Source of the DNA: Microcaldota archaeon
GTDB lineage: Archaea; Micrarchaeota; Micrarchaeia; Micrarchaeales; Micrarchaeaceae
DNA length: 35,360 bases
Direction: 5' to 3'
Assembly: GCA_027317945.1 (NCBI GenBank)
Contig: DAHVQB010000006.1
Coordinates: forward strand, 1-35,360
Shown here: positions 584 through 33,731 of the stretch, piece after piece
Layout: every line of letters begins with the position of its first letter
How positions within the stretch are numbered: position 1 is the stretch's first letter
Notes under the pieces: generated by a model
Database searches by the model: none
Told to the model about the DNA's origin: nothing
The model's input: the letters and a program-made list of their open reading frames with translations, nothing else
Position numbers and translations under genes: made by a program

Positions 584-1159
584 TTACTTCTTTGCGCTAG
601 GCCATCGAGGGTACATGTTATGGCTTATTGACATGGCGTCCAGTGCCTTTCCGACCACGAAATCGATCATGTCTTCGACGCTCTTTGGATGCGAATAAAA
701 AGCGGGCGATGCGGGCAATATTATGCCGCCTGCCCTTGTTATGCGCAGCGCGTTCTCGAGCTCTATCATGCCAAGCGGAGCCTCCCTTACGACCACGACC
801 AGCCTCTTCCTGCTCCTCAGCATGTTAAGCGCAGACCTGCTTATGAGGTTGGACGCTATTCCGGACGCCACCTCCGCCATGGTCTTTATGCTGCATGGTA
901 TTATAATCATGCCGTAGACATCGAAGCTGGAGCTGGAGATATCCGCGCCGAGGGCGTCCTCATCGTAGACTTTCTTGGAATATTTCTTTAGTCCTGAAGC
1001 GAAGGCAGGGTATCCTTCCGCGGCTGCTGTCTTCTTGGCCCAGTCCGACACTACGGTGTGCACATCGAAGCCCAGACCGGAAAGCACTTCTGCTGCCCTT
1101 ACCCCGTATTGCAGCCCGCTGGCCCCCGTAATGCCGATTATAACGCGCCCTTTCGCCAT
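584..1159 (-). CDS. ubiX: UbiX flavin prenyltransferase
   Basis: UbiX joins dimethylallyl phosphate to FMN to make prenyl-FMN, the cofactor of UbiD decarboxylases. The 191-residue length is normal. Visible hallmarks are the flavin-binding GITGASG at 9-15, PCSIKTMAEVASGIASNLI at 88-106, VVREAPL at 123-129 and ILPASPAFY at 147-155. A UbiD gene lies about 3.6 kb away at 4813-6231 on the other strand, so this enzyme probably supplies its cofactor. A TATA-like CATATATAG about 35 nt upstream supports the ATG at 1159. Confidence 0.93.
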   Translation of the reverse strand: MAKGRVIIGITGASGLQYGVRAAEVLSGLGFDVHTVVSDWAKKTAAAEGYPAFASGLKKYSKKVYDEDALGADISSSSFDVYGMIIIPCSIKTMAEVASGIASNLISRSALNMLRSRKRLVVVVREAPLGMIELENALRITRAGGIILPASPAFYSHPKSVEDMIDFVVGKALDAMSISHNMYPRWPSAKK

Positions 1160-1331: not shown

Positions 1332-1958
1332 TCACGGAGGGGATACCAAGTGTCCGGCAACGGCAGTCGCACCGGCGTACATGCCGCCCAGACCCGCGAA
1401 AATGAACGCGAGCCAGCATATGACCAGGAGGGCATGCCAACCTCCCCAGACGCTCTTCTGGTAACCAGGGAGCCGGTCCATCACTATTGTTGCGGGATAA
1501 GAGAATATGCCCGCCACGCCGAACAGTGTGAACAGCATCAAGAGCTCGAACGGATCCTGCGTGAGTTGCAGCACATAACCGTTGTAGCCGTACCATATGG
1601 CCATGACGCCTATCAGCAGGGCGAGTAGCCCGACGAACTGCAGCTGGATGCCGCGGCGTATCGCCATTGCAAAAGCGAGCAGCACTATGCCGAACGAGAC
1701 GTACGGATCCATGAACAGTATGTTATACGGTGACGTAATTCCCAGCGGCCACAGGAACTGGTCCACTATGCCAGAGACGAGCATATAACCGCCCAATACT
1801 GCGAGGGGCACTGCTGCGGCTTTTAGCCCTCCCGTTATATCCTTCGCTCTTTTGCGGTACTGCATATACACGTACGACATCAGGTACGCTATCAGCAATG
1901 CTGCGAATCCTATGACAAAAAGCTGGTAAGCCAGGTTGTCCACGAAAGCCAATTCCAT
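1332..1958 (-). CDS. DUF981-like multi-pass membrane protein
   Basis: About 208 residues with six or seven hydrophobic helices and short basic loops (QYRKRAKD near 35). Length and pattern resemble the archaeal DUF981 membrane family, which has no assigned function. That assignment is from memory of the family and is moderate. The start is uncertain: GTG 1961, ATG 1958 or TTG 1952. Against the GGTGA site, TTG 1952 has the spacing seen for other genes here. A 172-nt gap with its own promoter region separates it from ubiX. Confidence 0.7.
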   Translation of the reverse strand: MELAFVDNLAYQLFVIGFAALLIAYLMSYVYMQYRKRAKDITGGLKAAAVPLAVLGGYMLVSGIVDQFLWPLGITSPYNILFMDPYVSFGIVLLAFAMAIRRGIQLQFVGLLALLIGVMAIWYGYNGYVLQLTQDPFELLMLFTLFGVAGIFSYPATIVMDRLPGYQKSVWGGWHALLVICWLAFIFAGLGGMYAGATAVAGHLVSPP

Positions 1959-1990
1959 CACCGCTTCATACTTCTATTTAACAATTTAAA

Positions 1991-2182: not shown

Positions 2183-2566
2183 ATGAAAACTCAAAAAAAG
2201 GATGGATGCCCTACCCTGAACCTTATACACGTAGTGGGCAAGAGGTGGACCATACCTATAATTGAGGAGGCGTATTTCTCGGAAGGCAGCGTATCATTCA
2301 ACGAGCTACAGCGCTCACTCTACGGAATAACGCCCAGGATGTTGAGCAATAGCCTTGATGAGCTGCAGGAATATTCGCTCCTGGAGAGGAGGGAGAACAA
2401 CTCGGGCAATGCCACGCACACGCAGTACTCGCTCACGGACAAAGGGCACGAAGTCGCCAACCTGATAAGGGAGATAAAGGAGCTTGGCAGGTGCTTCTAC
2501 ACGTATGACACCAATGCGGCGTGCAAGAACATGAAATGCAGCGCATGCGGACTTCTGGACAGGTAA
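2183..2566 (+). CDS. HxlR-family winged-helix transcription regulator
   Basis: A 127-residue winged-helix protein with the HxlR pattern: Cys9 in an N-terminal CP pair, VVGKRWTIPII at 17-27, FNELQRSLYGITPRMLSNSLDEL spread over 39-61, and YSLTDKG at 82-88. Such proteins sense thiol or electrophile stress, often through the N-terminal cysteine. An unusual C-terminal tail carries CX4CX2C (Cys114, 119, 122) plus Cys104, which could bind metal or form a redox switch. TTATAAAG at 2110-2117 is a plausible TATA box. The gene faces the mfnB-ubiA operon with a 232-nt gap, so it is a candidate regulator of that operon. Confidence 0.85.
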   Translation: MKTQKKDGCPTLNLIHVVGKRWTIPIIEEAYFSEGSVSFNELQRSLYGITPRMLSNSLDELQEYSLLERRENNSGNATHTQYSLTDKGHEVANLIREIKELGRCFYTYDTNAACKNMKCSACGLLDR

Positions 2567-2798: not shown

Positions 2799-3539
2799 AT
2801 GATGCTGATGGTAAGCGTGCAGAACCTTGCTGAGGCAAGGGAAGCAGTGGAAGGAAATGCAGACATAGTGGACGTCAAGAACCTGGATGAGATATTCATA
2901 GGAGCTAATTATCCCCCTGTAATCAAGGAGGTCAGGGAGGCATTCCCCAAGGAAAGGCACGTCAGCGTGACCCTGGGATCGGTTCCTGAAGCTGTCGGCA
3001 CAGTTGCCCTTGCAGTGTACGGCGCGGCCGTGCTGAAGGCCACGTCAGTCAAGGTGGGATTCGTGAACATGTCCTACGATACGGCGCTGAGGACGCTCAA
3101 GGAGTGCAAGAAGGCGCTCAAGGGCTTCGACACGAAGCTGATAGCCGCAACTTTCGCGGACAGCCACCTCTACAATGGGATAGACCCGAAGCTCGTGGTG
3201 AAGCTTGCCAAGGAGAGCGAGAGCGACGGCATACTTATAGACACGCTCACGAAGGACGGGAGGAACCTGTTCGACTTCATGGACGAGCCCACGCTTAAGA
3301 GCCTGACCGACGAGGCCAAGGATCTGGGCATGAGCACCGCACTGTCAGGCGCGCTCAAGATAAGCAACTTCGACACTCTTGTCAGGATAAACCCGGACAT
3401 AGTCGGGGTTAGGGGCGCGGTGTGCAAGGGCGAGGACAGGTACAATGGAAGGGTTGACGCCAAGGCAGTTGCCAACGTGAAGAACGAGCTGGACATGAGG
3501 GTAGAAGGCAAGATAGAGGTATTCAACAATACCAAGTAG
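2799..3539 (+). CDS. mfnB: MfnB-family (5-formylfuran-3-yl)methyl phosphate synthase
   Basis: MfnB converts two glyceraldehyde 3-phosphates into the furan aldehyde 4-HFC-P, the first ring precursor of methanofuran. The 246-residue protein matches the known methanogen enzyme end to end. The presumed active-site lysines are present: Lys27 in DVKN, Lys85 in VKVG and Lys152 in DTLTKDG, with Asp148. IVGVRGAVCKGEDRYNGR at about 201-218 is also typical. The ATG at 2799 is chosen over the longer frame because GTGA lies 4 nt upstream and the TATA box is correctly placed. It is the first gene of a five-gene run. No methanogenesis genes are in the window, so the final product is unknown. Confidence 0.87.
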   Translation: MMLMVSVQNLAEAREAVEGNADIVDVKNLDEIFIGANYPPVIKEVREAFPKERHVSVTLGSVPEAVGTVALAVYGAAVLKATSVKVGFVNMSYDTALRTLKECKKALKGFDTKLIAATFADSHLYNGIDPKLVVKLAKESESDGILIDTLTKDGRNLFDFMDEPTLKSLTDEAKDLGMSTALSGALKISNFDTLVRINPDIVGVRGAVCKGEDRYNGRVDAKAVANVKNELDMRVEGKIEVFNNTK

Positions 3540-3559
3540 TAGCAGGCAAAGTGACCGGA

Positions 3560-3787
3560 ATGCTTATAGATGCCACGAAGAAGAACTGCAAGGGCGTAAT
3601 AACCGAACTGGAGAAGGCCATGGCAGGGCTGAAGTCCGGGGATAATGTTGAGACCATAGTCTACGGCATACCAAACAAGATGGACGTCTACGCCTGGGCA
3701 AGGAGGAAAGGCCACAGGATAGAGAGCGAGCAGAGGGATGGCGCCAATTTCAGGATTACCGTAAGCAAGGGGACACCTACCTCCTAA
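3560..3787 (+). CDS. TusA/SirA-fold small protein with degenerate CPxP motif
   Basis: This 75-residue protein has the beta-alpha-beta layout of TusA-type sulfur carriers: a start like LIDATxxNC, a helix ELEKAMAGLKSGD, then WARRKGHRIE and a final strand. In true TusA the cysteine sits in CPxP. Here Cys10 is kept but the prolines are replaced (NCKGV). It may carry sulfur, bind a partner, or have lost transfer activity. GTG 3551 could start the frame, but I take ATG 3560 because GTGA at 3551-3554 then serves as its ribosome site. It begins 20 nt after mfnB. Confidence 0.7.
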   Translation: MLIDATKKNCKGVITELEKAMAGLKSGDNVETIVYGIPNKMDVYAWARRKGHRIESEQRDGANFRITVSKGTPTS

Positions 3788-3825
3788 GACTGCAAATCTT
3801 CTGTTTAACAAATTAGGTTGGTTCA

Positions 3826-4803
3826 ATGGACTATTCGAAAAGGGATTCTAAGCAATGGGCGCGCCAGAATTTGACAGGGCAATGGACCACTATGGTGACG
3901 CCGTTCACAAAGGACGACCGGCTGGACGAGGAAGGGCTGAAGCGCAACATAGAGCACGTACTTTCGCTCGGCACAAAGGGCATGGGATTTTCCTGGAACA
4001 TGGGGGAGTTCTGGAGCCTGACAAAGGAAGAGAGGCTCAGGCTGATGGAGATTGCGCCGGACCTCATAAGGAAGCGCGCCATGGCAGCGTTCCAAGTTAC
4101 TGACACCTCGATAAAGGATGTGATTGGGATGGCGAACAAGGCCGAGCAGTACGGCTACGATTTCGTCATACTCGGGCCGCCGTACATGGTCACGAAGACC
4201 GAGGACCAGGTGGTGAATTTCGTGGGCAAAGTAGCCGAAAAGACCAACATAGGCATAGCGTTCTACAACTCGCCCCAGTTCGGGATCGTGCTCAACGTGA
4301 AGGGGTTGACGAGGATATCTGAAATCGAGAACGTCATAGCGATAAAGGAGGCCAGCTTCAACACGCAGATAGGCATAGACACGCACCTTATGGCAGGCAA
4401 GAACGCGGTGGTGAGCGTGCCAGACGAGGAGATATTCTTTTATGAGCAGTATTACAACTTCCACCAGCAGGCCATGTTCGCTAACACGAGCGACTGGAGG
4501 TTCGACACCAAGACGAAGCACGATTACGTTAATTTCATAGACCTTGCCACATCGGGCCAGATGGACAAGGCGCGCGAGGCGTACAAGGCGGTCTACCCTG
4601 TAAAGAGCGTCTCCAGGAAATGGTGGCCTCGGATAGTGGCCAGGACGGGAGGCTCGCTGCCCGTGCAGATGGCGAAGTACTGGGGAGAACTCATGGGCAT
4701 GGCTGGAGGCCACGTAAGACCGCCAGTGCTGGAGCTTACGCAGGATGAGAGGGACGGCATAAAGAAGGATCTTATAGGGCTTGGGCTCATACCTGCTGAA
4801 TAG
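3826..4803 (+). CDS. DHDPS/NAL-family class I aldolase (pyruvate lyase type)
   Basis: A TIM-barrel enzyme of the DapA family, which forms a Schiff base with pyruvate. The catalytic Tyr is Tyr147 in FYNSP and the Schiff-base lysine is Lys174 in IAIKEAS. GE at 60-61 matches the conserved TTGE loop, but the two threonines of the proton relay are Asn58 and Met59 here. At 325 residues it is longer than usual DapA (about 290) and closer in size to hydratase-aldolases that act on aromatic aldehydes. True lysine-pathway DapA is therefore unlikely. Its place between a furan-aldehyde synthase and UbiD hints at an aromatic or furan aldehyde substrate, which is inference. Confidence 0.83.
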   Translation: MDYSKRDSKQWARQNLTGQWTTMVTPFTKDDRLDEEGLKRNIEHVLSLGTKGMGFSWNMGEFWSLTKEERLRLMEIAPDLIRKRAMAAFQVTDTSIKDVIGMANKAEQYGYDFVILGPPYMVTKTEDQVVNFVGKVAEKTNIGIAFYNSPQFGIVLNVKGLTRISEIENVIAIKEASFNTQIGIDTHLMAGKNAVVSVPDEEIFFYEQYYNFHQQAMFANTSDWRFDTKTKHDYVNFIDLATSGQMDKAREAYKAVYPVKSVSRKWWPRIVARTGGSLPVQMAKYWGELMGMAGGHVRPPVLELTQDERDGIKKDLIGLGLIPAE

Positions 4804-4812
4804 GCGCGCTTT

Positions 4813-6231
4813 ATGATAAAGGATCTACGGGCTTACCTGGATTATCTCCGTTCGAAATCCAGGCTGGCCGTTGTCAAGGATGAGGTAGGCACAGAATTGG
4901 AGATAACGGCGCTTACTGATACCGCCAACAGGGCGCGGAAGTATGACAGCAAGACGTTGATGTTCTCAAACGTACAGGGCTACGACATGCCGGTAGTCAC
5001 AAGCCTATTCGGGTCCTCGAACACGCTCAGTGAGCTTCTGGGCAGCTTCTCGATATCCGACACTGTGATGAGCATACTGCATCCGCAGCAGGCCGGAGGC
5101 GCAGGGTCCATGCTGAAGGGAGCCAAGGCGTTCATTGATTCCAAGCCGAAGGTCGAAAGCTTCAGCGCAAATGGTTACAGGAAGCTGGGCGGGCTTGATG
5201 AGCTGCCCGTTCTCAAATCATGGCCCAACGACGCGGGGAAGTTCATAACGCTGCCGATTGTTGTCACGAACAGCTATGACGACGGTTCGCTTAACGCCGG
5301 AGTTTACAGGATGCAGGTCTTCGACGATGTCACCACAGGGATGCACTGGCAGGCGCAGAAGGGCGGCGCATTGCATGCATATGAGGCGGCGAAGCGCGGC
5401 AAGGCACTCAAAGTTTCGGTCGCGATAGGCACAGATCCGTTCAACATACTTTCAGCTGCGACCCCTCTGCCTCAGGGCATAAACGAATTCGCGTTCGCAG
5501 GCATGGCGAGAGGCTCAAGGACTACTTTGGTGAAGGATGGCGACTATCCTCCAGTGCCTGCCAATTCCGAGATAATCATAAACGGCTACGTGGAGCCGGA
5601 TGAGCGCAGGATGGAAGGGCCGTTCGGCGACCACACAGGATATTACTCCATACCAGAACCCGCCAACGTGCTGCACATAGACAAGATATACGCAAAGAAG
5701 GATGCAGTCTATCCGGCCAGCGTGGTGGGCTTCCCATGGAATGAGGACGCGGTCATAGGGCTCTTCATGATGCAGTACCTCAAGCCGATGATAAGCCTTG
5801 TGAACGACAGCATAATCGACATATACCTTCCGCCGGAGGGGCTTTTCACTGACGTGTGCTTCATAAAGGTGAAGAAGCGGTTCCCGGGCGAGGCCAAGAA
5901 GGCCATGTTCTCAGTGCTTGGGCTGGGACAGCTCTCATTCATAAAGATGATAGTGGCGATGGACGACGACATCGACATAACCGACCTGGGCCGCGTACTC
6001 TGGGCCATGGCGACAAGGGTGGAGCCGGAGAGGGACGTCCAGATAATAAAGGGCACGCCCACGGACACGCTCGACCACACGGCCAACACTGTGGCGTACG
6101 GCTCCAAGATGCTGATAGATGCCACGAAGAAGAGCAGGGGCGAAGGCTACGGCAGGGACTGGCCAGATACCATATCGCTGCCGAAGGGCGTCATGGACGA
6201 CGCGGTGAAGAGATGGCAAAAGCTGAAATAA
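4813..6231 (+). CDS. ubiD: UbiD-family prenyl-FMN-dependent decarboxylase
   Basis: A 472-residue UbiD decarboxylase of full length. GVYRMQ supplies the conserved Arg (166), and EGPFGDHTGYYS at 268-279 supplies Glu268 and Asp273, giving the R-E-D set used with prenyl-FMN and Mn. Typical blocks YPASVVG (about 304-310) and the C-terminal LIDATKK and WPD are present. Family members decarboxylate prenylated hydroxybenzoates (quinone synthesis), anhydromevalonate phosphate (archaeal isoprenoids) or furan carboxylates (HmfF). The next gene is UbiA-like, which favours a quinone-like or other prenylated ring product. It starts 9 nt after the aldolase, with UbiX encoded nearby. Confidence 0.92.
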   Translation: MIKDLRAYLDYLRSKSRLAVVKDEVGTELEITALTDTANRARKYDSKTLMFSNVQGYDMPVVTSLFGSSNTLSELLGSFSISDTVMSILHPQQAGGAGSMLKGAKAFIDSKPKVESFSANGYRKLGGLDELPVLKSWPNDAGKFITLPIVVTNSYDDGSLNAGVYRMQVFDDVTTGMHWQAQKGGALHAYEAAKRGKALKVSVAIGTDPFNILSAATPLPQGINEFAFAGMARGSRTTLVKDGDYPPVPANSEIIINGYVEPDERRMEGPFGDHTGYYSIPEPANVLHIDKIYAKKDAVYPASVVGFPWNEDAVIGLFMMQYLKPMISLVNDSIIDIYLPPEGLFTDVCFIKVKKRFPGEAKKAMFSVLGLGQLSFIKMIVAMDDDIDITDLGRVLWAMATRVEPERDVQIIKGTPTDTLDHTANTVAYGSKMLIDATKKSRGEGYGRDWPDTISLPKGVMDDAVKRWQKLK

Positions 6232-7064
6232 GCAGGATACTCGCGTCACTTTTCAATCCATGGCTCATAATATACAACATATGCTTCGTTTACATAGGCA
6301 TGCTGCTTGCGCCCAACTTCGGCCTCTTTTCCTTCGCGTTCATAACAATCGCCTTCATGGCTGCCAGGCTTGCCGCACTGCTGATGAACAAGTACCTGGG
6401 CAGGGAGATAGACGTCAAGAACAAGAAGAAGCTGGAATCCGACCCCAGCCTCGCGGTGCCGAAGAACCTGCTGCTCGCAAGCTTCATCATACTCACTGCA
6501 ATATTCATTTTCAGCGCTTACATGCTAAACACCCTGGCATTGCTGCTTTCGCCTTTGGTCATACTGCTATTCGTGGTGGACCCGAAACTCAAGAAGCGCA
6601 GCGCCAGCAGGCATTTCAGCGTTGGCACGATAGAGAGCATAGACGTGCTGGCTGGCTACATAGGGGTCGCAGGATCTTTCCCGTACACCGCCGGGCCGTA
6701 CATACTGGTGCTGAGCATGATACTGGTCGGCAGCGGATTCGACATACTGTATTCAGTCATACACATGGATTTCGACAAAAGGCATGGGCTGAAGACCTAC
6801 CCTGTCAAGTACGGCGCGAAAAAGGCGGTCAGGATATCTTCCATGCTGCACTACTCCGCATCCGCACTGATACTGGTTTTCGCTGTAATGAGCGGCTATG
6901 CAGTGGTAATCGTCGGGGCAGTGGTTGCTGCGGTTGCACTGATGCTGCAGCACGTGGGGCTTGATGTGAAAAACGATGCGAGCATAGCGATGAGGATAAA
7001 GATATACAACGCCCTGTTCGCCGCCATACTGCTAGTATCCATAGCCATTGCGAGGCTTGCCTGA
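6213..7064 (+). CDS. UbiA-superfamily membrane prenyltransferase-like protein with altered Asp motifs
   Basis: A 283-residue integral membrane protein with eight or nine helices and the UbiA layout. The first motif NxxxDxxxD reads NKYLGREID (59-67), so the middle Asp is Gly63. The second, DxxYxxxDxxxD, reads Asp177-Tyr180-His184-Asp188, so its middle Asp is His. Both changed positions normally help bind the Mg-diphosphate of the prenyl donor. The start at ATG 6213 overlaps the ubiD end by 19 nt and implies translational coupling. It may still prenylate with altered metal use, or act on an unusual donor. Confidence 0.85.
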   Translation: MAKAEISRILASLFNPWLIIYNICFVYIGMLLAPNFGLFSFAFITIAFMAARLAALLMNKYLGREIDVKNKKKLESDPSLAVPKNLLLASFIILTAIFIFSAYMLNTLALLLSPLVILLFVVDPKLKKRSASRHFSVGTIESIDVLAGYIGVAGSFPYTAGPYILVLSMILVGSGFDILYSVIHMDFDKRHGLKTYPVKYGAKKAVRISSMLHYSASALILVFAVMSGYAVVIVGAVVAAVALMLQHVGLDVKNDASIAMRIKIYNALFAAILLVSIAIARLA

Positions 7065-28568: not shown

Positions 28569-29801
28569 ATGGAAAAACTTTTCCGACATGATATAGATGA
28601 CCTTGGGGCCTTCTACCATTTCTCCGATGAGGAACTGAAGGTGCTGGACAACGTTGACAAGGCAGTTGAGGAGCTTTCGGTATCAGAAATGGAATGCTAC
28701 CTTGACCACAAGGTCAATGTGGAAGGGCCAAGGATAGCAAAGAAGTACGGGCTGCAGCGCATACCGATAAAAAAGGAGTATGGCGGCTTGGGCATGGCGC
28801 CGCTCGTTTCCGCGCTTGCAAAGATGAGGTGCGGGCAGATAGGGCTGGGCTTCTCCAGTTATCTCAACGTACAGCTTTTCCTCACCGAGCTAACCTTGCA
28901 GAGGTGGGGAAGCGACGAGCAGAAATCCAAGTACCTGAAACCCGCAGTCAATGGCGATTCAATACTGGCATTCGGGCTCACGGAACCGGAGGTAGGCAGC
29001 AACCCTGCGTCGATGAAGACAACGTTCGAGAGCAAGGGAGGCAAGTATGTAATCAACGGGTCCAAGTACCTGATTACCAACGGGCAGCGTGCGGACCACG
29101 CGATAGTGTTTGCAAGGGAGAAAGGCAATACCGAACCCAACGGCGGCATAACGGCGTTCCTTGTAGACACGAAGAGCGCAGGCTTCAGCGTGGCGCTGGA
29201 GCTGAGGGAGAAGATAGGCCTATTCACCTCCGATACGGCAATGCTAGAGTTCAAGGATCTTGAGGTTTCCGAGGAGGACATCATCGGGCCGAAGGGCAAA
29301 GGGCTTCCGGTAGCGTACTCTGCACTGCTCAACGGAAGGGTAGGCATAGCATCCGGATGCGTAGGCATAATAGAGGGCTGCATGTCTGCAGTGATAGAAA
29401 GGGCGAAGGAGAGGGTGCAGTTCGGCAAGCCGATAGGCAAGCACCAGCTCATACAAAAGCACATCGCCGAGATAAGGCAGAACCTGGAGATGGCCCGCTG
29501 GCCAACATACGTAGCAGCGATGAAGAAGGCGGAGTACGAGAAGGATCCGAGCAACAAGCAGCTGCTCGAGGAGACTGACTTGCGCGCATCGCTCGCGAAG
29601 AAGATAGCCTCCAGGCTTGCTTTCGACTCTGCGGATCATGCCGTGCAGATATTCGGCGGGTTCGGATACTCTCTCCTGTCCCCCGTAGGCAGACTATTCT
29701 GCGACAGCAGGGTCACTAGGATATACGAGGGTTCGGATGAGATACAGGAGCTGAAGATAGCGTCGATTATGCTCGGGAAGGGATTCGAAGCGTTTGAATA
29801 G
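28569..29801 (+). CDS. acyl-CoA dehydrogenase
   Basis: A 410-residue FAD enzyme that makes trans-2-enoyl-CoA in fatty acid or amino acid breakdown. Visible are LTEPEVGSNP (flavin and substrate), YLITNGQRADHAIVFAR, RVQFGKPIGKHQLIQ, VQIFGGFGYS, and the C-terminal RIYEGSDEIQ with the probable catalytic Glu387. The N-terminal 40 or so residues are longer than in many homologs. GAGGT precedes ATG 28569. It stands alone, and no other beta-oxidation gene is in the window. Confidence 0.94.
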   Translation: MEKLFRHDIDDLGAFYHFSDEELKVLDNVDKAVEELSVSEMECYLDHKVNVEGPRIAKKYGLQRIPIKKEYGGLGMAPLVSALAKMRCGQIGLGFSSYLNVQLFLTELTLQRWGSDEQKSKYLKPAVNGDSILAFGLTEPEVGSNPASMKTTFESKGGKYVINGSKYLITNGQRADHAIVFAREKGNTEPNGGITAFLVDTKSAGFSVALELREKIGLFTSDTAMLEFKDLEVSEEDIIGPKGKGLPVAYSALLNGRVGIASGCVGIIEGCMSAVIERAKERVQFGKPIGKHQLIQKHIAEIRQNLEMARWPTYVAAMKKAEYEKDPSNKQLLEETDLRASLAKKIASRLAFDSADHAVQIFGGFGYSLLSPVGRLFCDSRVTRIYEGSDEIQELKIASIMLGKGFEAFE

Positions 29802-29832
29802 AACCGGATTTTGGTTAAAGAGGTGACATCCT

Positions 29833-29875
29833 CCCACCCGTGAACGGTGTGGGATTTCCCGCTCACTTTGTTAAA
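29833..29875 (-). mobile_element. IS200/IS605-type terminal hairpin, copy B
   Basis: Near-identical twin of the 100-142 repeat. The single altered stem pair is G-C here and A-T there, so the fold is kept. On the minus strand it ends GGGAGGATGTCAC, the classic IS1341/IS605 right-end form. The 7-mer GTTAAAG occurs on both sides (29814-29820 and 29870-29876), 49 bp apart, perhaps a target trace. The helicase stop codon at 29871-29873 lies inside the repeat. No transposase gene is adjacent. Confidence 0.65.
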
Positions 29876-31436
29876 GGGTTAAGGGCCGCTGCCCTGCGTT
29901 GGCCTTCCTGGCGGAGTAGCTTGAGGCGGCCATGGTGGCCTTTATCCTCATGAGTATGTCGCGCATCCTCTTCTCCCTCATCCTTGAGACCAACAGGTAC
30001 ATCTCGTCCTTTGTGCCCTTGGTCACCATTGTTATGACTTCGCCGAACTTCATGCGGCCTGCCCGGCCTTTGCGCTGTATGCTCCTTATCTCGCTCGGCA
30101 CCGGCTCATAGAATACGACGGCATCCACGCTGGGTATGTCAAGCCCTTCCTCGCCTATGGACGTGGCGACCAGTATCCTGAACTTGCCCTGCCTGAAATC
30201 CTCTATCGCCTGCTGCTGCTGGGATTGGGTAATGCCTTCCTTCTTGCCGACGAATATCATGGAATTAAGCATGTTCTTTAGCAGCATTTCTGATATCATC
30301 TTTGCGGTGGAACGGTATTGCGCGAACACTATGACGCTCTTGTCGCTGAGCTGCCCCTTGAGCAGCTCTATGAGGGCGAACACCTTCTGGTGCTCCTGGC
30401 CGTTCGCAACTGCCGCCTGAACCATCGAGAGAGCGCTGTTGACCTCCTTGTTGTTCAGTATGCTCTTGACAACCCTGCTCTTCAGCTCCTTGCCCTGCAG
30501 CGACTCGAAGTACTTGACGAACGGGGTGAGGCCCTCCGTACTTATTAAGTCATACGCGTGGACCAGGTCGAGAACGTAAACGTAGTTGAACAGAGCATTG
30601 AACTTGTAATTGCTGGCCTGTATCTTGTCTATGTTCCTGCCTATGTCGATGAGCCTGCCCTTCGGCATGTTCTCGAATTTGCTGAAAGGGCTCAGCCCGG
30701 TCCTGTAAAGGTTGCCAAGATGCAGGTCTATTATCGGCTTAAGCATGCCAAGTACCGAATCGATGAGCTGGCTCTTCTTGACATACAACACGCTCATCTC
30801 TTTGTCCATGACGTACGGTTCCACATCCGGGTCGATTGAGACCCTCAGCTCTATGTTCTCGACGCCCAACGCCCCTACCAGCGCGTCTATCTTCTTCTTG
30901 TTGCTGCCCGGAGACGCGGTCAGGCCGAGTAGCTGCACGCCCTTCAGCTTCGCTTCGTCCGCTATGTACGTGTAGGCGTACTTGCCCACCGCCTTGTGGC
31001 ATTCATCGAATATTATTATGCCGAATTCGTCAAGCGAGAGCGCACCGGACTTGAGGTCGTTCGCTATCGTCTGCGGCGTAGCCGCAATGACCCTGGCACT
31101 GGCGTTCTGCTCCTTCCTTGCTGCGCGTGCGGACGCTCCGGTCAGCAGCGCTATCGAAGTGGGCTCGATGTTGAGCATCCTCACCAATGAATTGTAGTGC
31201 TGCTCGCTTAGGGGCTTTGTAGGGGCCATGAGCATTGCGCGCTTTCCCTCGCTCAGCGCCCTTGCTATGGAGAGTATCGCTATTAGCGTCTTGCCAAGGC
31301 CCGTAGGCAGTACAACCAGGGTATTCTTGCCTGCGCCTATGCTAGAAGCTATGTTTATCTGGTAGCTCCTAGGCTCTACCAGTTCTGTATGCACTAGCTT
31401 TGTGCAGTCGCCCAGCTCATCCCATAATGGGGCCAT
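29871..31436 (-). CDS. hef: Hef/MPH1-type SF2 helicase without nuclease domain
   Basis: A 521-residue SF2 helicase. Motif I is VLPTGLGKT (42-50), motif II DECH in IIIFDECHKAVG, motif III LTASPGS, and motif VI SIQRKGRAGR after EEGLDIPSVDAV. A helical insert between the two RecA domains is typical of Hef/MPH1/FANCM, which process stalled forks. Euryarchaeal Hef adds an ERCC4 nuclease and HhH part (about 750 residues in total); none is present here. Some archaeal lineages naturally lack it, but this gene ends in an IS-type repeat that supplies its stop, so truncation is possible. Confidence 0.9.
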   Translation of the reverse strand: MAPLWDELGDCTKLVHTELVEPRSYQINIASSIGAGKNTLVVLPTGLGKTLIAILSIARALSEGKRAMLMAPTKPLSEQHYNSLVRMLNIEPTSIALLTGASARAARKEQNASARVIAATPQTIANDLKSGALSLDEFGIIIFDECHKAVGKYAYTYIADEAKLKGVQLLGLTASPGSNKKKIDALVGALGVENIELRVSIDPDVEPYVMDKEMSVLYVKKSQLIDSVLGMLKPIIDLHLGNLYRTGLSPFSKFENMPKGRLIDIGRNIDKIQASNYKFNALFNYVYVLDLVHAYDLISTEGLTPFVKYFESLQGKELKSRVVKSILNNKEVNSALSMVQAAVANGQEHQKVFALIELLKGQLSDKSVIVFAQYRSTAKMISEMLLKNMLNSMIFVGKKEGITQSQQQQAIEDFRQGKFRILVATSIGEEGLDIPSVDAVVFYEPVPSEIRSIQRKGRAGRMKFGEVITMVTKGTKDEMYLLVSRMREKRMRDILMRIKATMAASSYSARKANAGQRPLTL

Positions 31437-31534
31437 AACAAAGGATTATGATTCAAACAATTTATAATGTTAGTAAGGAAGTGAGCGGATTAAGCGATTG
31501 TTATTTAAATTTTAAACCATAAGACATTGTTGGC

Positions 31535-31606
31535 GCTGCAATAGCTCAGTGGGAGAGCGCCCCGCTGAAGACGGGGCGGTCGCAGGTTCAAATCCTGCTT
31601 GCGGCA
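31535..31606 (+). tRNA. tRNA-Phe (anticodon GAA)
   Basis: A 72-nt tRNA. The acceptor GCTGCAA pairs with TTGCGGC, with one T-G pair. The D arm is GCTC/GAGC. The anticodon stem CCCCG/CGGGG encloses CTGAAGA, giving GAA. The T arm is GCAGG TTCAAAT CCTGC, with discriminator A and no CCA. TTATTTAAAT at 31501-31510 is the likely TATA box. Confidence 0.95.
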
Positions 31607-31755
31607 ATCATTTTTCTTGGGCAGCATGGTGCGTTTGCCGCGCCGTGGGCCCGGTCAAAACATCTTTGACAGCCAGTGCTATGTCAAGATATGTTTGGTG
31701 GGCCAGTTCCGCTTTGGCTCTGCACGAAGATGACACGGCGCAGCAAGCAAGAGGG

Positions 31756-32616
31756 TCAATTGCCCTCCTTTAGCAATGCAGGTATGTCCTGCGGATACTG
31801 CGCCACTTTCACGCCTGCGGCATTAAGCGCCTTTATCTTGGAATCGGCAGTGCCCTTGCCCCTGCTTATTATGGCCCCGGCGTGTCCCATCCTTTTTCCT
31901 GGAGGCGCGCTCCGGCCGGCTATGTAGGCAACGACCTTTTTCTTGAAGCCCTGCTTTATGTATTCGGCGGCGTCCTCTTCTGCAGTGCCGCCTATCTCTC
32001 CGACAAGCACCACAGAATTCGTATCCTTGTCGTCCTTCAGAGCCTTAAGCATGTCAAGGAAACTCAACCCTACAACCGCGTCACCGCCCAGACCAAGCAC
32101 GGTGCTCTGTCCCATTCCGGCATCGGTAAGCGCCTTTACTATCTCGTAGGTAAGGGTGCCGCTCCTGGACACTACTGCGACATCGCCCTTCTTGAATATG
32201 TGATTGGGCATTATGCCCATCTTTGACTCGAATGGCACGGTTAGGCCGGGGCCGTTGGGCCCTATCAGGGTGATGCCGTTCCTCTTCGCGTTAGCGTACA
32301 TCTCCATCTCGTCGTGCTTTGGTACGTGCTCTGTTAGTATGTATATGAGCTTTATGCCGCCTGCCATGGCCTCGAAGAATGCGTCCTTCACGAATGGCGC
32401 GGGCACGCTTATCATGCTGGCGTCAGGCTTGAGGTGCATGCACTCTGCAACAGTATCGAAAACCGGAATCCCGTTCACTGCGGTGCCGCCCTTGCCGGGG
32501 GTTATGCCCGCTACCACGTTAGCTCCGAACCTGACCATCTCCGCGCTATGGAAGGAACCCTGATGCCCTGTTATGCCCTGCACTATTATCTTGCTATTTT
32601 TATCTATGAATACCAT
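31756..32616 (-). CDS. sucD: succinyl-CoA synthetase alpha subunit
   Basis: A 286-residue subunit that binds CoA and carries the phospho-histidine. The N-terminal Rossmann region has GITGHQGSFH (14-23). VVSRSGTLTYEIV lies in the middle, and the phosphorylated His is in GHAGAIISRGKG. Length is normal. Its ribosome site TAGGTG overlaps the sucC stop, and the start is 8 nt after sucC, so the two are coupled. Together they make ATP or GTP from succinyl-CoA in the TCA cycle. Confidence 0.96.
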   Translation of the reverse strand: MVFIDKNSKIIVQGITGHQGSFHSAEMVRFGANVVAGITPGKGGTAVNGIPVFDTVAECMHLKPDASMISVPAPFVKDAFFEAMAGGIKLIYILTEHVPKHDEMEMYANAKRNGITLIGPNGPGLTVPFESKMGIMPNHIFKKGDVAVVSRSGTLTYEIVKALTDAGMGQSTVLGLGGDAVVGLSFLDMLKALKDDKDTNSVVLVGEIGGTAEEDAAEYIKQGFKKKVVAYIAGRSAPPGKRMGHAGAIISRGKGTADSKIKALNAAGVKVAQYPQDIPALLKEGN

Positions 32617-32624
32617 TTGAACAC

Positions 32625-33731
32625 CTACTTGGACAGTTCCGCCACCTTCTTGACGCCGTCGGTCATGTTCGGGAACGCATGTATGCCATTCTGCTCAAGT
32701 ATCTTGCGGCCCTCCTCCTCGTGGACACCTGACAGCCTCACGACAAGCGGTATGCTTATCTTGAACTCGTTCTTGGCAGCCACTATTCCCTGCGCTACGG
32801 TGTCGCACTTTGTCACGCCGCCGAATATGTTGACGAATATGGATTTTGGATTCGCCTTTAGTATAAGAGGGAATGCGTCCTTCACTATGTCGCTGTTGTC
32901 CGTTCCGCCCAGGTCGAGGAAGTTCCTCGGCTTCAGGCCGTGGAGAAGCAGTGTGTCGAGCGTGGCCATTGTGAGGCCTGCCCCGTTTGCCACGACTCCT
33001 ATCGTGCCGTCAAGCTCCACGAATGAATAGCCCTTGAGCCTGGCCTCGTTCTCCAGCTCGGTCAAGTCATCGTATGAGCCCTTGATGTCTGGATGCCTGA
33101 ATAGGGAATCCTGGTCCATGCTGACCTTTGAATCTGCGGCCACTAATTTGCCGTCGTTTGTTATCACAAGCGGGTTTATCTCGACCAGCTCTGCATCATA
33201 CTGCTTGAAGAGCCTGTAAAGCCCGGACAGCATCTTGGAGAATTGCTTGGATAGATCGGCATTCAAACCTAGCGCCTTTGAAGCTGCAGTCGCCATGTAT
33301 GGGCTGAATCCCACGAATGGGTCGATCTGCTGCATGAATATGTCGGAATCGCTTACGCTTTCTATATCGACGCCGCCCTTCTGGCTCACCATTATGATGG
33401 GCTGCTTCCTGGACGTGTCTATCGCTATTGAAACGTAAAGCTCCTTTTCTATGCTGAGCTTGCCCTCTACCAGCAGGTTATTGACCTTGAGGCCTTTGAG
33501 GCGCGCAGCGAAAAGCTCCTTCGCTATTGCCTTGGCCGAATCAAGATTGTCGGCAAATTTTATTCCGCCTGCCTTGCCCCTTCCGCCAACTAGGACTTGG
33601 GATTTTATGGCCACGGGCCACTGCATCTGCCTGCCGTCAAGCTCCCCATCGTTCGATATTACAAAACCATCAGGCACAGGTATGCCGAATTTCCTGAAAA
33701 GCTCCTTCCCCTGGAATTCGAAAAGATTCAT
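32625..33731 (-). CDS. sucC: succinyl-CoA synthetase beta subunit
   Basis: A 368-residue nucleotide-binding subunit with an ATP-grasp fold. It starts MNLFEFQGKELFRKFGIPVP. KSQVLVGGRGKAGGIKFA holds nucleotide-site lysine and glycines. AELVEINPLVI and FLDLGGTDNSD are conserved in the family, and VNIFGGVTKCDTVAQGIV contacts the phosphohistidine. A few residues shorter than the bacterial form. First gene of the sucCD operon. Confidence 0.96.
   Translation of the reverse strand: MNLFEFQGKELFRKFGIPVPDGFVISNDGELDGRQMQWPVAIKSQVLVGGRGKAGGIKFADNLDSAKAIAKELFAARLKGLKVNNLLVEGKLSIEKELYVSIAIDTSRKQPIIMVSQKGGVDIESVSDSDIFMQQIDPFVGFSPYMATAASKALGLNADLSKQFSKMLSGLYRLFKQYDAELVEINPLVITNDGKLVAADSKVSMDQDSLFRHPDIKGSYDDLTELENEARLKGYSFVELDGTIGVVANGAGLTMATLDTLLLHGLKPRNFLDLGGTDNSDIVKDAFPLILKANPKSIFVNIFGGVTKCDTVAQGIVAAKNEFKISIPLVVRLSGVHEEEGRKILEQNGIHAFPNMTDGVKKVAELSK

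Follow-up and report, generated by a model that had tools for sequence, protein, structure and literature searches.

A 35,360-nt stretch of archaeal DNA (contig DAHVQB010000006.1 of assembly GCA_027317945.1; hereafter the window) carries a run of five genes on its forward strand. The run opens with an MfnB-like aldolase, a distinct subfamily of the 4-(hydroxymethyl)-2-furancarboxaldehyde-phosphate (4-HFC-P) synthase family (2799..3539; PF04476, 208 bits). Next come a TusA-like single-domain protein, a possible sulfur or acyl carrier (3551..3787, with an alternative ATG start at 3560; PF01206), and a Schiff-base lyase/aldolase forming its own subfamily of the DapA superfamily (3826..4803; PF00701, 100 bits). 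The last two genes encode an MqnL-like prenyl-FMN decarboxylase of the UbiD family (4813..6231; three UbiD domains, the largest at 225 bits) and a prenyltransferase of the UbiA family, similar to MqnP and the ubiA_other group, with altered Asp motifs (6213..7064; PF01040, 97 bits against a cut-off of 34). Intergenic gaps are 20, 38 and 9 nt, counting TusA from the ATG at 3560, and UbiD overlaps UbiA by 19 nt. A UbiX flavin prenyltransferase lies on the reverse strand at 584..1159 (PF02441; TIGR00421 at 189 bits, cut-off 109). An original prediction, made from the sequence alone, had described this layout, and the genes, strand, positions and spacing are as it claimed. The genome with the window is 711 kb and 60% complete, and its nearest named relatives are Micrarchaeota metagenome-assembled genomes (MAGs).

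The order UbiX-DUF981-(HxlR)-MfnB-TusA-DapA-UbiD-UbiA is retained in two further genomes of the genus (loci L015 and L019), in both of which UbiX adjoins the run. The five-gene arrangement exceeds chance, because this order is kept in both genomes and the linkage of the first three genes extends over both archaea and bacteria. Linkage is not limited to close relatives, which is what the original prediction depended on; it is conserved across phyla and domains.

The comparison points to a functional core that had been overlooked in that prediction: MfnB, the TusA-like protein and the DapA-like protein (the triad), often predicted as one fused protein. Locus counts refer to the 80 MfnB loci nearest to that of the window, which come from Micrarchaeota, Marsarchaeota, Thermoplasmata, Chloroflexota, one Actinomycetota and one Planctomycetota. 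TusA was adjacent to MfnB (23 loci) or fused to it (57 loci) in all 80, DapA was at most 3 kb from MfnB in 73 of them, and at 24 bacterial loci DapA, MfnB and TusA shared a single open frame. Pfam recognized three domains in the order DapA-MfnB-TusA in the L061 protein (TusA slightly below cut-off), and DapA and MfnB only in that of L099; the C-terminal domain of L099 was therefore modelled. The model (pLDDT 90.7) shows a beta-alpha-beta-alpha-beta-beta arrangement in which a Cys opens helix 1, and its Foldseek matches, led by TsuB/YeeD, included SirA-like and TusA chains. As modelled, the fused C-terminal domain has a TusA fold. Because the triad proteins are fused, the three activities may well act on one substrate line.

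The window MfnB is 43% identical to MJ1099 and retains D25, K27, K85, D151 and K155 (MJ numbering), which, Lys155 apart, we take to be the catalytic set of MJ1099. In window numbering these are D25, K27, K85, D148 and K152, invariant among 81 relatives. Lys155 of MJ1099 is a catalytic residue, and known MfnB condenses two molecules of glyceraldehyde 3-phosphate to 4-HFC-P (PMC11365854). Triad MfnBs form a single group (99/95 support), apart from MJ1099 and the Streptomyces and Azospirillum MfnBs, in a tree whose bootstrap is not fully settled and whose outgroup branches are long. Within the phylum, 11 of 294 genomes had MfnB above the family cut-off, all in the window genus or in a second family of the order. 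When genome contigs were scanned, the nearest MfnBs lay in Marsarchaeota, Thermoplasmata, Chloroflexota (SAR202/Dehalococcoidia), one Actinomycetota and one Planctomycetota, not in methanogens.

The TusA-like protein matched PF01206 at 39.2 bits (cut-off 28.6), and its Cys13 was invariant in 81/81 relatives. TusA sulfur carriers have a CPxP motif, but the window protein reads CKGV here and its relatives are of CxG type. In the DapA-like protein the tyrosine Y147 and the Schiff-base lysine K174 were invariant in 74/74, and the subfamily shares a GxxWxMGEFW motif. For all three triad proteins the invariance of the active site holds in bacteria as well as archaea. Its AlphaFold model (pLDDT 90.6) led Foldseek to the dihydrodipicolinate synthase (DHDPS) fold at ∼20% identity; these matches were generic DHDPS-type ones and gave no clue to the substrate. 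The protein falls below the cut-off for the true DapA of lysine biosynthesis (TIGR00674 at 78 bits, cut-off 206). Among the top PDB matches listed for it, by sequence or by structure, none was named as an aromatic hydratase-aldolase of the NahE/PhdJ type.

UbiD, UbiA, UbiX and, in relatives, a UbiE-type enzyme would correspond to the tail of a quinone pathway. The window UbiD exceeded the TIGR00148 cut-off (401 bits vs 245); its best NCBIfam model was mena_SCO4490/MqnL, at 431 bits under a cut-off of 496. The nearest group to the window UbiA is ubiA_other/MqnP-like, with 148 bits to TIGR01475 (ubiA_other; cut-off 181). By these matches the tail genes look like those of late quinone biosynthesis: UbiA/MqnP-like, UbiD/MqnL-like, UbiX-like and, elsewhere, UbiE-like. 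A quinone substitute or electron carrier, as suggested earlier, is the best reading. UbiD-linked UbiAs of Micrarchaeota share the unusual motifs NxYxGRxxD and DxxYxxxHxxFD, with few exceptions (window; L124, L125, L127-L131, L135-L137). The futalosine (Mqn) pathway uses the same kinds of tail enzyme (UbiA-, UbiD-, UbiX- and UbiE-type), often clustered; its late steps MqnP, MqnL and MqnM, together with MenG, were predicted previously (PMC4746308). In the triad-free relatives L193 and L194 the same tail genes lie beside MqnA/C/D-type genes, whereas in triad loci DapA-MfnB-TusA occupy that place.

Linkage of the triad to tail genes was found in several arrangements. In bacterium G322 (locus L204) the operon-like order is UbiD-UbiA-UbiX-(DapA-MfnB-TusA)-UbiE, and L099 has UbiD-UbiA-UbiX followed by the triad. 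UbiD was inside the examined flanks of 13 of the 56 bacterial triad loci, and a UbiD-UbiA-UbiX cluster recurs in triad genomes, several times with UbiE. The second Micrarchaeota family has a recurrent UbiX-UbiD-UbiA-(UbiE-type methyltransferase) order, and in three of its genomes nearby genes look, by eye, like membrane subunits of complex I. Within the window genus, G076 has DapA-UbiD-UbiA on one contig and MfnB-TusA on another.

As to co-occurrence, UbiD was present in 10 of 11 triad Micrarchaeota vs 95 of 283 others. Strong ubiA_other matches (at least 146 bits) were found in 45 of 51 triad genomes; G276, G315 and four genomes of Marsarchaeota type were the exceptions. In the Chloroflexota class to which G340 belongs, ubiA_other was in 5/5 triad genomes vs 24/196 overall (p ∼2e-5, kinship ignored). 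Five of those 24 had the triad and nine had clear MqnA/D hits (partial in G374), with zero overlap; at these numbers the exclusion is too sparse to decide (p = 0.07).

In one triad Chloroflexota group a half-protein that binds thiamine pyrophosphate (TPP), similar to sulfopyruvate or phosphonopyruvate decarboxylase, often stands by UbiX, usually with a PHP-domain gene (L191, 3472-4800; L198, 5498-7783; L202, L203, L208, L210 and L214). It was not seen in the loci read that had Mqn genes or neither type. The TPP half-protein and the PHP protein would be consistent with a 2-oxo-acid phosphate intermediate; their synteny may be by descent.

Two genes stand between UbiX and MfnB in the window. One encodes a DUF981 membrane protein, possibly an accessory (1332..1961, reverse strand; PF06168, 140 bits), and its place beside UbiX is conserved in the genus. 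A DUF981 gene was also noted near UbiD-UbiA in one Thermoplasmata genome (L179, 12500-13180). The other encodes an HxlR-family regulator (2183..2566, forward strand; PF01638, 57 bits), at the same position in L019 and degraded or partial in L015. Further along the window (28569-33731), open reading frames were read by eye as resembling acyl-CoA dehydrogenase and both succinyl-CoA synthetase subunits, which suggests for this micrarchaeote an oxidative metabolism in which a quinone could serve.

The triad genomes were searched for respiratory and known quinone genes. Complex I NuoH was in 47/47 of those tested. MenB above its curated cut-off was in 0/47, with positive controls, and MqnA/D were not found in 40 of the 47. 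No full menaquinone gene set that might account for the genes separately was found, with MenB and MqnA/D tested. Chorismate synthase was found in none of 18 Micrarchaeota tested, chosen by kinship, a point that the original prediction had also overlooked, but was found in 14/14 controls; among the other triad genomes it was also not found in G304 and was present in nearly all the rest. Because chorismate synthase was not found in them, a UbiA/UbiD ring made from their own chorismate appears unlikely, at least in Micrarchaeota. The known quinone pathways are reportedly missing from many Chloroflexota, with suspicion of quinones still to be discovered (PMC13386864). Use of host quinones was proposed for one micrarchaeote that has cytochrome bd and lacks quinone genes (PMC5498576).

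Since the triad recurs in respiring archaea and bacteria that mostly lack both known menaquinone routes, some electron-carrying lipid not yet recognised may owe its head group to these three genes. We consider it probable that the run forms a biosynthetic cluster for a redox lipid, either an isoprenoid quinone or a compound resembling one, and that its head group does not come from chorismate by way of Men or Mqn enzymes. On the simplest reading, the triad would supply the head-group acid, replacing Men or Mqn head-group synthesis. Gene order, fusion, residue conservation, co-occurrence and the absence of tested alternatives were computed; all catalytic steps, the substrates and the product are what we infer.

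In the proposed mechanism the three triad proteins, which many bacteria carry as a single polypeptide, would jointly turn triose phosphate and pyruvate into a small ring acid. MfnB would condense two glyceraldehyde 3-phosphates, as methanogen MfnB does (PMC11365854), the DapA-type lyase would add or remove pyruvate, and TusA would give sulfur or a thio-activated acyl group. UbiA would then attach an isoprenoid chain to the ring acid, UbiD would remove the carboxylate using prenyl-FMN made by UbiX, and in relatives the UbiE-type enzyme would methylate the ring. Speculatively, six carbons from two triose phosphates plus three from pyruvate, less one as CO2, give C8, which matches a benzofuran or benzothiophene quinone nucleus in size. 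A more specific proposal, which we hold only tentatively and consider doubtful as it stands, is a chorismate-free route in which a three-domain DapA-MfnB-TusA enzyme would combine pyruvate with two triose phosphates, and perhaps with sulfur, into a new heteroaromatic head group with a fused furan or thiophene. The outcome would be a respiratory quinone not described so far, common to SAR202-type bacteria, acidophile archaea and some symbiotic archaea.

Several observations weigh against a quinone role for the run. In the second Micrarchaeota family MfnB, TusA and DapA are together, with UbiD and UbiA elsewhere, on other contigs. The four Marsarchaeota-type genomes with MfnB-TusA had no ubiA_other match. 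Tail genes do not require the triad, since UbiD-UbiA occur in several Micrarchaeota without triad and without chorismate synthase (for example G008, G042, G107, G063 and G213); these may salvage a head group, in the way suggested for host quinones in a relative (PMC5498576), or the genes may have another role. UbiA enzymes have Asp-rich motifs NxxxDxxxD and DxxYxxxDxxxD, but the window protein reads NKYLGREID and DILYSVIHMDFD, with one Asp lost from each, and such non-canonical motifs are found in micrarchaeal UbiA with and without the triad alike. Ten of the 24 ubiA_other genomes of the G340 class had neither triad nor Mqn match. Complex I is useless as a discriminator within Micrarchaeota, where NuoH is present whether or not UbiD is. 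Seven triad Chloroflexota had MqnA/D-like hits (102-143 bits); the three read in context (L218, L219 and L220) were solitary, with no other Mqn gene nearby, and an NCBIfam scan of the MqnA-like hits was uninformative because the true MqnA/D of L193 match no model either. Triad genomes are also related to each other and many are incomplete MAGs, which softens absences and, through kinship, inflates co-occurrence statistics. In Micrarchaeota genus g4 (L130, L134 and L138) UbiD and UbiA likewise lie near each other, and both MfnB and chorismate synthase are missing.

The separation of triad and tail genes in the second family, the UbiD-UbiA pairs lacking a triad and the Marsarchaeota-type loci would also fit a triad whose product is a thio-compound or a cofactor of furan or thiophene type in its own right, such as a C1 carrier or a sulfur cofactor, with proximity to UbiD and UbiA reflecting a shared respiratory lifestyle and not a single pathway. 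A gene of the chlorite dismutase/HemQ family is found near the Marsarchaeota-type pairs of MfnB and TusA (L027, 8197-8910; L044, 6041-8989; L047, 11504-17114), with XdhC-family and MoeA-like genes also near in two of these three loci and DapA near in none. We nevertheless regard this explanation as unlikely. It does not sit well with the six-gene order UbiD-UbiA-UbiX-triad-UbiE, with the G076 contigs, where DapA keeps company with UbiD and UbiA and not with MfnB-TusA, or with the strong co-occurrence of triad and ubiA_other. In addition, Ftr, a methanofuran-dependent C1 enzyme that served as proxy for the methanofuran pathway, was in 0/51 triad genomes.

Ordinary menaquinone, with the triad as a further route to a dihydroxynaphthoate-type acid for MqnP and MqnL, would account for the MqnP-like UbiA of triad Chloroflexota, for a UbiD there that passes the MqnL equivalog cut-off (606 bits vs 496 in L099), and for the resemblance of their tail clusters to those beside the Mqn genes of L193 and L194. 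We judge it rather improbable: no path is evident from MfnB and DapA chemistry to a C11 naphthoate, and micrarchaeal UbiD and UbiA are under the Mqn cut-offs.

A pathway to thiamine thiazole or a similar sulfur heterocycle, to which TusA-type carriers would supply sulfur, was suggested by a ThiE-type gene (PF02581) that immediately precedes MfnB in L017 and, in 11 Chloroflexota loci, by a gene that looks by eye like ThiD; such thi-like neighbours are clade-limited, whereas the UbiD/UbiA/UbiX links occur in both domains and in several arrangements, which makes this reading very improbable. Biosynthesis of a methanofuran- or methylofuran-type coenzyme, for which MfnB homology and the retained fold and active-site residues speak, was rejected as exceedingly improbable on the lack of Ftr, which bears out the earlier statement that this is not classical methanofuran; the window MfnB is also under the NCBIfam equivalog cut-off for methanogen MfnB (225 bits vs 341), triad MfnBs are a separate clade linked to TusA and DapA, and the methylofuran-type Azospirillum MfnB locus (kinase, DUF447, formylmethanofuran dehydrogenase subunit) has no annotated DapA or TusA.

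The quinone reading can be set beside known systems. The ring of caldariellaquinone originates from tyrosine. Caldariellaquinone and sulfolobusquinone of Sulfolobales are sulfur-containing heteroaromatic quinones whose pathway is uncharacterised (PMC13386864); the TusA-type part of the triad could hint at sulfur here too, but a control search found no MfnB in S. acidocaldarius. Methyl-plastoquinone of Nitrospirota is a recent case of a quinone outside the expected bacterial groups (PMC12324825, PMC13386864). The UbiE-type enzyme of the second Micrarchaeota family has the MpqE model of this quinone as one of its relatives, but the enzyme scores higher with the general MenG/UbiE model (181 bits) than with MpqE (149 bits, cut-off 335). 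Streptomyces plasmids likewise carry MfnB outside methanogens and methylotrophs; in L199 (5980-12262) genes for aldehyde and alcohol dehydrogenases and for methyltransferases come after MfnB, with no TusA or DapA annotated, and this is likely a furan natural-product cluster.

The tail enzymes are of known kinds, and no description of the triad, the putative head-group module, was found in the literature searched. A conserved module in the position of the Men or Mqn head-group genes is a concrete, testable candidate. If the reading is true, it would add a further route to respiratory quinones, possibly to a new quinone, and would provide a genomic marker of quinone capacity for uncultured marine and acidophile lineages.

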